Of a DNA stretch of 64,000 bases, positions 3,236-53,799 are shown piece after piece. The stretch comes from Algibacter marinivivus. Lineage in GTDB: Bacteria > Bacteroidota > Bacteroidia > Flavobacteriales > Flavobacteriaceae. The position numbers were made by a program, and so were the translations under genes. Location: NCBI RefSeq assembly GCF_003143755.1, contig NZ_QFRI01000004.1, forward strand, positions 124,001 through 188,000. Reading direction: 5' to 3'. The notes beneath the pieces were generated by a model. The model was not told where the DNA came from and did no database searches. It worked only from the letters and a program-made list of their open reading frames with translations. Positions within the stretch are counted from its first letter, which is position 1; each line of letters begins with the position of its first letter.

Positions 3236-4675
3236 TCAATATTTAATACACACGTTTTTAGCTTCAGTAAAAAAGCGTAATGCTTCAAAACCACCCTCAC
3301 GACCAACACCTGACGCTTTTACACCGCCAAAAGGGGTTCGTAAATCTCTTTGCATCCAAGTATTAACCCAAATAATTCCAGCTTGTAATTGGTTGCTCAA
3401 ACGCATCGTACGTTTTAAATCATTAGTCCATAATGTAGCTGATAAACCGTATTTCACTTTATTAGCCATTTGAAGAACTTCACTTTCAGTTTCAAAAGGC
3501 ATAATGGTAACAACAGGTCCAAATATTTCTTCTTGATTTATTCTGCATTCATCAGTTTCTACTTCTATAATAGTGGGCTCTAAATAATAACCATTTTCAT
3601 AACCATCAACAGTTACTTGTTTACCTCCACAAAGTATTTTTCCACCTTCGTTTACACCAATTTCAATATAGTCCAAAACCTTCTTTAAATGTGGTTTTGA
3701 AACTAAAGCACCAATATTGGTAATGTTTTCTGATGGATGTCCAACTTTAAGTTGTTTTACTTTTTCAATAAAATCAATCTTGAATTTTTCATAAATAGAG
3801 GCTTCTACAAAAATACGACTGCCACATAAACAAATCTGCCCTTGATTAGAAAACGACGATTTTACAGTAGTCACCAACATATCGTCATAATCACAATCTG
3901 CAAAAATGATGTTTGGGTTTTTACCTCCAAGTTCTAATGATAATTTTTTAAACATAGGCGCAGCTACTTTGGCTATATGAGCTCCTGTTGAAGTGCCACC
4001 TGTAAAAGAAATGGCTTTAATTTCAGGATGGTCTATAATAGCCTGACCTGTTGTGGTCCCTAATCCATGAACGATGTTTAAAACCCCTTTTGGGAGACCA
4101 GCCTCATTTAGTAATTCACTTAAAAGATAAGCTGTCATTGGTGTTACTTCACTTGGTTTTGCAACTACACAATTTCCTGCTGCTATGGCAGGCGCTATTT
4201 TCCATGTAAATAAATAGAGTGGAAGGTTCCATGGGGAAATACAACCTACAACACCAATGGGTTGTCGTAGTGTGTAATTTATAGCGTTTTGTCCAACGCT
4301 CTCATGACTCTCACTAGAAAATTGTGTAATAGCATTTCCGAAAAACCTAAAGTTACTAGCTGCTCTTGGGATATCTATAGCTTTTGCGAAACTAATGGGT
4401 TTGCCATTGTCTATACTTTCAGCTTCAGCAAAGCGTAGCAAGTTTACCTCTAATAATTCTGAAATTTTAATAAGGATTCTGTTTCGTTCTTCAAAAGTGG
4501 TTTGAGACCATGTTGGAAAAGCTTCTTTTGCAGCTTTAAAGGCTTTTTCTACATCTGTTTTTGAAGAGTTTGGTATTTGCCCGTAAACTTCTCCATTAGC
4601 AGGACAATAGTTGTCTATCCATTCATTTGAGATTGGATTTTTGAATTTGCCGTTTATGAAGTTTTGGATGTTCAA
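3236..4675 (-). CDS. nbaE: 2-aminomuconate / 2-hydroxymuconate semialdehyde dehydrogenase
   Basis: An NAD-dependent aldehyde dehydrogenase of 479 residues that oxidises 2-aminomuconate 6-semialdehyde to 2-aminomuconate. It has N150 in SPWNLPL, the general base E248 in LELGGKNP, the nucleophile C282 in NQGQICLCGSR, and the C-terminal PFGG(V)KASG(V)GREGG signature. The neighbours supply the preceding (ACMSD) and following (deaminase) steps, which sets its role more precisely than the fold does. The GIY-YIG unit lies directly upstream, separating this gene from the deaminase gene by 429 bases in what otherwise is a tightly packed operon. Confidence 0.9.
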   Translation of the reverse strand: MNIQNFINGKFKNPISNEWIDNYCPANGEVYGQIPNSSKTDVEKAFKAAKEAFPTWSQTTFEERNRILIKISELLEVNLLRFAEAESIDNGKPISFAKAIDIPRAASNFRFFGNAITQFSSESHESVGQNAINYTLRQPIGVVGCISPWNLPLYLFTWKIAPAIAAGNCVVAKPSEVTPMTAYLLSELLNEAGLPKGVLNIVHGLGTTTGQAIIDHPEIKAISFTGGTSTGAHIAKVAAPMFKKLSLELGGKNPNIIFADCDYDDMLVTTVKSSFSNQGQICLCGSRIFVEASIYEKFKIDFIEKVKQLKVGHPSENITNIGALVSKPHLKKVLDYIEIGVNEGGKILCGGKQVTVDGYENGYYLEPTIIEVETDECRINQEEIFGPVVTIMPFETESEVLQMANKVKYGLSATLWTNDLKRTMRLSNQLQAGIIWVNTWMQRDLRTPFGGVKASGVGREGGFEALRFFTEAKNVCIKY

Positions 4676-4716: not shown

Positions 4717-4741
4717 TGTCTGGTCGAGCGCAGTCGAGACC
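4717..4741 (+). repeat. GAGCGCAGTCGA hairpin repeat, left copy
   Basis: Reads TGTCT then GG, TCGAGCGCAGTCGAGA, CC. The outer GGT pairs with ACC around a conserved core. It ends on the first base of the GIY-YIG stop codon (4741-4743), so the hairpin could also serve as that gene's terminator. It is the partner of the copy at 5068-5092. Confidence 0.8.
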
Positions 4742-5061
4742 TATTTGGTTTCTGGATTATATTTTGAGTGTGTAGCGTTTCTACATTCAGCTAAAATTTT
4801 TAGCATATCAAATTTTTCATTTGCTAAAGCTAACTTTTTCTTTCCACTCCATTTTTTTATTTTCTTCTCAAAATATATAGCTTGATTTACGTCATTAAAT
4901 TCTTGATGGAAAATCAATTCTAGAGGTCTTCGTTTAAAAGTAAAACAATTTTTATTTAATCCATTTTGATGTTCTTCAAATCTTCTAGAAATATTATTTG
5001 TTACTCCAGTGTATGTTAAACCATCAGAACATTTTAGTATGTATACAAAATACGTTTTCAT
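4741..5061 (-). CDS. GIY-YIG nuclease family protein
   Basis: A 106-residue stand-alone GIY-YIG (URI-type) domain. The GIY-equivalent VYI is at 5-7 and YTG follows at about 17-19. RRFEEH supplies the conserved Arg, and YFEKKIKKWSGKKK carries the conserved Glu. Such single-domain proteins are predicted metal-dependent endonucleases of unknown target. I start at ATG 5061 (MKTYFVYIL) because the longer frame reads through the flanking repeat and over the deaminase gene. It has no partner domain and appears as a passenger inside a catabolic operon, framed by inverted hairpins. It may act on those hairpins; that is inference. Confidence 0.85.
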   Translation of the reverse strand: MKTYFVYILKCSDGLTYTGVTNNISRRFEEHQNGLNKNCFTFKRRPLELIFHQEFNDVNQAIYFEKKIKKWSGKKKLALANEKFDMLKILAECRNATHSKYNPETK

Positions 5062-5067
5062 AATAAA

Positions 5068-5092
5068 CCTCTCGACTGCGCTCGAGGAGACA
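5068..5092 (-). repeat. GAGCGCAGTCGA hairpin repeat, right copy (inverted)
   Basis: On the minus strand it reads TGTCT, CC, TCGAGCGCAGTCGAGA, GG. Compared with the left copy, the only changes are GG to CC at one side and CC to GG at the other, so base pairing is preserved by double compensatory changes. It lies immediately upstream of the GIY-YIG start codon, between that gene and the deaminase gene. Confidence 0.8.
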
Positions 5093-5104: not shown

Positions 5105-5506
5105 TTAAATTTTTTTATAAGCCATAACCTTAATCTCAACCACCAAATCTGGATGCGGTAATTGATGCACTGCAACTGTGGTTCGGGTTGGTCCTGTTTC
5201 CTTATCAAAAAACTCTGCGTAAGCCTTGTTGTAACCAGCAAAATCATTCATATTTACTAAAAAAGAAGTCACATCAACTACATCTTTTAAAGTGGCACCT
5301 TCATTGGCTAAATTCTTTTCAATATTCTTTAAAACTTCTCGAGTTTGAACTTCAATATTTAAATGTTTGGTTCCCATTTCGTCAATAATATCAACACCAG
5401 CTATAGTGTTATCTGCGCGTCGTGAACTGGTTCCTGATACAAATATAAAATCGCCAACACGTTTTGTGTGCGGATATGCGCCTCTTGGGGTTACTTTGTT
5501 GCTCAT
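5105..5506 (-). CDS. nbaF: 2-aminomuconate deaminase, RidA/YjgF family
   Basis: A 133-residue RidA/YjgF/UK114 protein. By operon position it is predicted to hydrolyse 2-aminomuconate to 4-oxalocrotonate and ammonia. Family features seen are [13 protein letters not shown] near residue 18, [16 protein letters not shown] near 70, and the acidic C-terminal strand [14 protein letters not shown]. General RidA proteins deaminate enamines or imines. Its place 2 bases after kmo and before the semialdehyde dehydrogenase argues for the dedicated aminomuconate deaminase, not a housekeeping RidA. Its stop is followed closely by the GIY-YIG unit. Confidence 0.82.
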
Positions 5507-53109: not shown

Positions 53110-53799
53110 ATGAAAGAAATGTTCAAACACAAGCATCCATACATACCATTCATCCAAAAAGATACCACAAAATTAATAGTTGGTACATTGCCACCACCAC
53201 GATTTTCAACAGGAGAATTGTTAGAAAAGGACGTTAATTTTTGCTATGGAAGCTATTACAATTCCCTTTGGTTATTTATAGATAAAATTCATAATTTGAA
53301 TTTACGATACGACAATTCGAATGAAGCGATTGAAGAACGAAAAGCATTTCTTATTAAAAGTAAAATAGGCGTTTGCGATATTGTTGAAAGCGCAGAACGC
53401 GATAAAATTGATGCTTCAGATTTAGGAATGAAAAACATAAAGCTTCGAGATATTATTGGCTATTTAAAGCAATATCCAAATATTGATACTTTATTATTCA
53501 CTGGCGGAAATAGTAAAAACGGTCCCGAATATTTCTTCAGAAAGCATCTAAAAGATTATAATTTGAAGTTGGAAATCGTTTCAAATGAAGTACCTCGAAT
53601 TCATAAATTTGAATTACCTGTCAGGTTGAGTGCAGTCGAAACCTCAATTAGAACAATAAAAACCGTTTCCTTAACCTCAGGTTCAGGAGCAGCCAATATT
53701 TCAATAAGCAGAATGCCACTTTATAAGCAGTTAAAAGCTAAAAATCCAGAATTTAATACGTTTGATTTTCGTGTGATGCAGTATAGAGAGTTTTTTTGA
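53110..53799 (+). CDS. Uracil-DNA-glycosylase-like protein with in-frame repeat insertion
   Basis: A 229-residue protein resembling the uracil-DNA-glycosylase superfamily: LIVGTLPPPRFS near 22-33 and NFCYGSYYNSLWLFI near 43-57 fit the family's motif I region, and KTVSLTSGSGAANISISRMPLY near 187-208 fits the C-terminal motif. It may act on a damaged or deaminated base; specificity is not known. A GAGTGCAGTCGA hairpin repeat is read in frame as PVRLSAVETS (residues about 171-180). The insert adds residues ahead of the last motif. Start ATG 53110; ATG 53119 is the alternative. Confidence 0.75.
   Translation: MKEMFKHKHPYIPFIQKDTTKLIVGTLPPPRFSTGELLEKDVNFCYGSYYNSLWLFIDKIHNLNLRYDNSNEAIEERKAFLIKSKIGVCDIVESAERDKIDASDLGMKNIKLRDIIGYLKQYPNIDTLLFTGGNSKNGPEYFFRKHLKDYNLKLEIVSNEVPRIHKFELPVRLSAVETSIRTIKTVSLTSGSGAANISISRMPLYKQLKAKNPEFNTFDFRVMQYREFF
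53623..53644 (+). repeat. GAGTGCAGTCGA hairpin repeat, fourth copy, inside a gene
   Basis: AGGTTGAGTGCAGTCG followed by AAACCT: the same core with AGGTT/AACCT arms, entirely inside the UDG-like coding sequence without breaking the frame. Confidence 0.75.

Follow-up and report, generated by a model that had tools for sequence, protein, structure and literature searches.

A small GIY-YIG nuclease gene between inverted TGTC-tagged hairpins in a Flavobacteriaceae operon: a candidate partner of dispersed repeats

In Algibacter marinivivus (GCF_003143755.1; 11 contigs, 3.34 Mb), the gap between a RidA-like gene and an aldehyde dehydrogenase gene is occupied by a 376-bp unit, which consists of a repeat, the gene of a 106-aa GIY-YIG protein and an inverted repeat. 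The question raised by this locus is whether the enzyme and the repeats belong together and, if so, what the unit is. The stretch of DNA analyzed, referred to below as the window, comprises 64,000 nucleotides. According to our reading of the open reading frames (ORFs), the surroundings of the unit are a kynurenine-type operon. The features concerned are as follows:

3236..4675, minus strand: aldehyde dehydrogenase gene, which in the host operon lies downstream of the unit (named by reading of the ORF, with synteny compared in relatives)
4717..4742, plus strand: 3'-side hairpin repeat, TGTCTGGTCGAGCGCAGTCGAGACCT, with the unpaired foot TGTC, T, stem GGTC...GACC, inner GA...TC, bulged GA and loop GCGCAG (inner pairs and bulge by our reading)
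4741..5061, minus strand: intact gene of the 106-aa GIY-YIG nuclease, its stop codon including the outermost base of the 3' hairpin stem
5067..5092, minus strand: 5'-side hairpin repeat, TGTCTCCTCGAGCGCAGTCGAGAGGT, with TGTC, T and stem CCTC...GAGG, the loop and bulge being as in the 3' copy
5105..5506, minus strand: RidA-like gene, which in the host operon lies upstream of the unit (named by reading of the ORF)
53615..53640, plus strand: further repeat copy, TGTCAGGTTGAGTGCAGTCGAAACCT, in frame within a 229-aa ORF

The feet of both hairpins at the unit are directed outward. The 26-nt arms differ only at positions 6–7 and 24–25, i.e., at four positions forming two paired stem dinucleotides (GG...CC versus CC...GG), as the initial annotation had stated. 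This arm pair was also recovered by an independent search. The real flanks (about 200 bp on each side) reach an inverted-repeat score of 36 at best; after shuffling in blocks of two (2000 rounds), the mean was 17.3 and the maximum 31.

It had been concluded from the paired difference that a double change kept the hairpin. Conservation of the folded shape is borne out by covariation: among 280 distinct copies, stem pairs x1–x4 are Watson–Crick in 257, 261, 263 and 270 (shuffled means 103, 80, 137 and 137), these copies including several loop types, coming mostly from loci picked for a GIY-YIG gene and being non-independent where related. The change itself does not follow, as GG/CC and CC/GG represent standing diversity of the family (59 GGTC/GACC and 30 CCTC/GAGG stems among the TGTC-footed copies) and no change is shown at the locus. 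An obligatory stem difference between the two ends was rejected: the same dinucleotide is found in 25 of the 69 gene-spanning outward pairs, with 21.6 expected. The structural evidence is provided by covariation and not by energy, since single arms fold no better than shuffled sequence (z from +0.11 to +0.40).

In the window-type repeat the TGTC foot, present in 220 of the 280 copies, is unpaired and separated by a single free base from four variable pairs; GA/TC and the loop follow, and GA is bulged on the 3' side, the inner pairs and the bulge being our reading. A second type, designated GTG, shares this frame and has a long inner loop. In its 247 copies covariation is clear for x1 (paired in 231, shuffled 114) and x2 (239 versus 196), slight for x4 (237 versus 230) and absent for x3 (241 versus 239). 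The foot of this type is TGTC in 159 copies and CGTC in 77, the search script having demanded a GTC ending.

The window repeat is shown by computation to be a TGTC-tagged hairpin of conserved structure with copies scattered over the genome. With up to two mismatches allowed, TGTCNNNTYGAGCGCAGTCGARA has 28 matches in the host genome (none for the reversed control) and at least one match in 178 of 299 family genomes, with a maximum of 150 in one genome; the reversed control gives a single match in each of five genomes of this set. Twelve of 20 inspected host-genome copies (24 matches minus 4 judged likely chance) lie outside long ORFs, as do 10 of 80 control points. Such a distribution is compatible with hairpins working in RNA around the gene, as terminators or mRNA stabilizers, with no link to the substrate of the enzyme, and the excerpted text of Di Nocera 2013 (PMC3733652) mentions that repetitive extragenic palindromes (REPs) may act as RNA elements. 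This explanation is unlikely: neither the conserved unpaired foot nor the agreement of repeat type with enzyme clade (see below) would be expected from it. The in-frame copy at 53615..53640 has a parallel in the in-frame REP-like elements known from Rickettsia (PMC3733652, excerpt).

REPs are widespread bacterial repeats. For one of their two large classes, tagged with CGTC or TGTC, the excerpted text of Di Nocera 2013 (PMC3733652) stated that there was no dedicated transposase. The window repeat resembles this superfamily in its unpaired CGTC/TGTC tag and in being a short dispersed palindrome. As described in the same excerpt, CGTC-tagged REP families 1–4 possess a loop of 4–5 nucleotides and a stem of 8–9 bp whose first two positions are complementary AT, whereas the first pairs of the window repeat are mostly G–C or C–G. 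Having four variable and two inner pairs and a bulge, and lacking fixed AT pairs, it therefore falls outside these four families as the excerpt describes them.

The enzyme belongs to the GIY-YIG nuclease superfamily by its score against PF01541 (65.3 bits; gathering score 22.6), and its predicted GIY-YIG fold is clear from profiles. Residues Y7, Y17, G19, R27 and E65, which we take to be catalytic, are invariant across 16 diverse family members. The best solved matches to the family profile are UPF0213 proteins (PDB 1zg2 and 1ywl; 77.7 and 63.4 bits) deposited as hypothetical. Among the 80 named loci of 579 relatives, the best protein matches are found in Flaviramulus and Flavivirga (88–89% identity), and no Neisseria is named there. 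The profile of group I intron homing endonucleases (TIGR01453) gives 15 bits against a cut-off of 56.05. A viral origin and a defence system were considered and rejected: there is no PHROG match at E ≤ 0.01 and none in one single-protein scan of viral contigs reaching close relatives only, and the PADLOC matches are just two, both weak (13.7 and 13.4 bits).

GIY-YIG genes like that of the window are often situated between inverted copies of the repeat with outward feet. An inverted flanking pair with a score of at least 28 accompanies 79 of 142 GIY-YIG genes (133 loci) and none of 163 neighbour ORFs, a comparison of the kind that the initial annotation had proposed; 63 of the 142 have no strong pair. 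At a score of at least 24 the counts are 98 of 142 and 6 of 163. In named genomes, inverted flanks with a score of at least 28 are seen for 55 of 83 GIY-YIG genes and 3 of 303 neighbour ORFs; this set shares organisms, and some contigs, with the set of 142. Neighbouring repeat pairs spanning a gene have outward feet in 69 cases, inward feet in 6 and the same direction in 9 (six-base-loop types only). REPs could instead be hot spots capturing passing genes, the GIY-YIG gene being mere cargo, and IS elements can indeed target REPs for insertion (PMC3733652, excerpt). A capture of this kind is very unlikely in view of the outward bias, of the rarity of inverted repeats around neighbour ORFs and of repeat type tracking enzyme clade.

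Repeat type follows enzyme clade, as shown by computation on a protein tree: 12 changes are required over 180 rows, versus a mean of 88 and a minimum of 80 in 200 shuffles (tree of 189 proteins, poorly resolved, with 18 of 185 inner branches starred). The same is suggested by a more distant clade. In a Winogradskyella MAG (locus L223, 1188–1508), the RidA/ALDH gap holds another GIY-YIG gene with 39% identity, framed by ATTCCTGCG...CAGGAATCT palindromes, so that two GIY-YIG clades with two repeat types fill two gaps of one operon. Flanks of ATTCCTGCG...CAGGAAT-like palindromes reach a score of at least 28 in 18 of 30 relatives of the distant clade and in 1 of 37 control ORFs; the strict pattern occurs on both sides in just 2 of the 30. 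These palindromes have the 8-bp AT-first stem of CGTC-tagged REPs as given in the excerpt of PMC3733652, but seldom the tag. The TGTC tag is not established for them, because the four preceding bases are TGTC in only 17 of 99 copies (all loci).

Genome-wide repeat numbers point in the same direction. Where a close window-type enzyme is present, 51 of 54 genomes hold at least five repeats, compared with 61 of 245 where it is absent; the enzyme threshold (E ≤ 4e-34) and the repeat-number thresholds of 5 and 10 were chosen after seeing the data. With a looser GIY-YIG set (E ≤ 1e-8), the proportions are 91 of 164 and 21 of 135, and 17 of the 92 genomes with at least ten repeats have no match at this level. 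GTG-type repeats track the enzyme clade P2 (32 of 42 genomes versus 37 of 257; E ≤ 5e-34, likewise chosen after seeing the data), and where P2 is absent they show no link to the window clade (8 of 39 versus 29 of 218, p 0.2). The specificity is leaky: window-type repeats are raised with P2 where the window clade is absent (15 of 27 versus 46 of 218, p 0.0003), as are GTG repeats with the window clade overall (22 of 54 versus 47 of 245, p 0.001). Of eight same-genus pairs differing in the GIY-YIG gene only six fit (sign test p 0.29, Wilcoxon 0.06), and part of the genome-level association is therefore attributed to shared ancestry. The flanks, the repeat type on the enzyme tree and the genome-wide counts agree that the GIY-YIG gene and the repeat belong together, as had been proposed.

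Mobilization of the repeats by a Y1/RAYT transposase, with the GIY-YIG association being secondary, is the least probable of the explanations considered. Of the 299 family genomes, 117 have a Y1 match. Such matches go with at least five repeats (OR 2.2, p 0.0015), and when only genomes lacking a close GIY-YIG enzyme are considered, a rank test still gives p 0.012, although the test at five repeats yields OR 1.7 and p 0.09 there. The host genome, however, has no Y1 match (PF01797, E ≤ 0.001), in accordance with the initial annotation, which had noted no transposase or RAYT inside the unit. In addition, the GIY-YIG association with at least five repeats stands both in Y1-bearing genomes (30 of 31 with the close enzyme versus 27 of 86 without it) and in Y1-free ones (21 of 23 versus 34 of 159). 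As a driver, Y1/RAYT was accordingly rejected as weak, being absent from the host genome and tracking repeat number weakly. The window unit resembles REPIN/RAYT systems (PMC3733652, excerpt) in that an enzyme gene is bordered by its presumed substrate repeat and few enzyme genes accompany many repeats; it differs in having GIY-YIG instead of Y1 and the tag TGTC instead of GTAG.

Comparison of the operon site within the genus concerns the mobility of the unit. A close RidA relative marks the site in four of ten genomes, two being filled (the host genome and G009) and two being without the unit. In one of the latter (G004), the RidA stop codon directly abuts the ATG of the aldehyde dehydrogenase gene; in the other (G003), a 114-bp spacer contains no window-type core at up to two mismatches. 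The empty site suggested for the kyn operon of relatives does exist, and comparison of filled with unit-less sites reveals no target-site duplication or exact insertion boundary. In G009 (L034/L062) the GIY-YIG gene at the operon site is broken by a stop and a frame change, while both hairpins are intact. In G003 (L064, 1897–1916) a palindrome of a second kind, ATTCCTGAGTAGGCAGGAAT, spans the RidA stop codon.

The window clade is found in the kynurenine-type operon across many Flavobacteriaceae genera, the gaps being different. Among 30 distinct proteins the slots are RidA/ALDH (11), ALDH/SDR or GNAT (12), after KMO (4) and after ACMSD (3). These labels were assigned by hand: a GNAT case was placed in ALDH/SDR, a KMO/HAO case in KMO/RidA, and two rows with ALDH downstream only in RidA/ALDH. 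On the protein tree the slot requires 10 changes, versus 14.5 in shuffles (minimum 10). Two slot-B proteins (L102, L262) group together with good support in the slot tree, and the branch leading to them is long (0.47). In two loci with a filled ALDH/SDR slot (L209, L216), the aligned RidA and ALDH ends are 5 and 11 bp apart, and in L211 two copies of the unit occupy two gaps. The 79 window-clade entries at 68% identity or above fall into 14 context clusters, the largest having 43 entries, 38 of them with an operon gene as a neighbour (the same organism sometimes being entered twice).

Because of the changing gaps and the sites without the unit, it appears to relocate slowly, mostly nearby among the gaps of one operon. 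The same pattern could result from insertion on several occasions or from losing one copy where several were present. The freely spreading minimal mobile unit of the initial annotation is not supported in that form, as GIY-YIG matches number 1 to 7 per genome with a match, the site is common to many genera and the apparent relocation is among the gaps of one operon.

We consider it probable (about 0.68) that the gene encodes a nuclease whose own putative target sites border it on either side, the enzyme recognizing its own hairpin, probably as single-stranded DNA. The GIY-YIG enzyme may then be the missing partner of the TGTC-tagged hairpin repeats. It would bind and cut its hairpin when the latter is single-stranded, during replication, DNA uptake or excision. 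Repair of the break at homologous repeats would lead to copying or relocation of the repeat and, rarely, of the whole unit, which could explain the changing operon slots and the unit-less sites.

A serious possibility, though short of an even chance, is that the enzyme is a domesticated host nuclease, which cuts single-stranded DNA at the repeats and polices natural transformation or recombination, the repeats serving as marks and movement of the unit being incidental. This would agree with the occurrence of the window clade in one operon over many genera, with the low number of matches per genome, with the codirectional orientation of the GIY-YIG gene and its scored neighbours in 38 of 38 rows (some organisms counted twice) and with what is reported of Ssn. 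Ssn, a GIY-YIG nuclease of Neisseria meningitidis said to have been described in 2025, is reported to be specific for single-stranded DNA at dispersed NTS repeats and to have many homologues. Domestication alone leaves unexplained the position of the gene between two of its own sites and the changing slots. A nuclease acting on its own flanking hairpins could also perform a host role, for instance limiting incoming single strands in transformation as reported for Ssn; such a role is compatible with the embedded unit and, given the operon site common to many genera, may be why the gene is kept.

The initial annotation had regarded a GIY-YIG nuclease as a different route for repeats. The association with repeats stands, but the route is not categorically new, mainly because Ssn is reportedly a GIY-YIG nuclease acting at dispersed repeats. 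Like Ssn as reported, the window enzyme is a small stand-alone GIY-YIG protein with many homologues and short repeats dispersed in its own genome, the 28 host-genome matches representing a candidate cognate repeat. Apparent differences from Ssn are the position of the window gene between two inverted repeats, the agreement of repeats with enzyme clades inside a single bacterial family and the changing operon slots, cleavage being presumed here. Among the matches listed from the open-licence literature, no paper pairs GIY-YIG with REP or Ssn, and the repeat strings occur there in eight papers with titles unrelated to REPs. A term search of a 2025 REP survey (PMC12306157) gives no word that starts with nuclease, transposase or RAYT.

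More tentatively, and with considerable doubt, small GIY-YIG nucleases could supply the dedicated enzymes still missing for the CGTC/TGTC-tagged REP superfamily as a whole, including dRS3. They would drive transposase-free spread by cutting single-strand hairpins, repair making the copies, and a gene framed by two sites would be an autonomous unit. The 106-aa nuclease with its clade-wise repeats represents a concrete candidate enzyme for CGTC/TGTC REPs, testable clade by clade, and the clades offer natural enzyme–hairpin pairs of different specificity for direct comparison.

Several loci show other arrangements of gene and repeats. The host genome has a second enzyme of the window clade (L002, 1492–1942), with both hairpins located 3' of the gene and the gene start 9 bp past the preceding ORF. 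In L087 (G220) two adjacent GIY-YIG genes are surrounded by many direct and inverted repeat copies, as in local duplication. In L206, L160 and L192 the GIY-YIG domain opens ORFs of 417–458 aa, possibly through fusion with the next gene.
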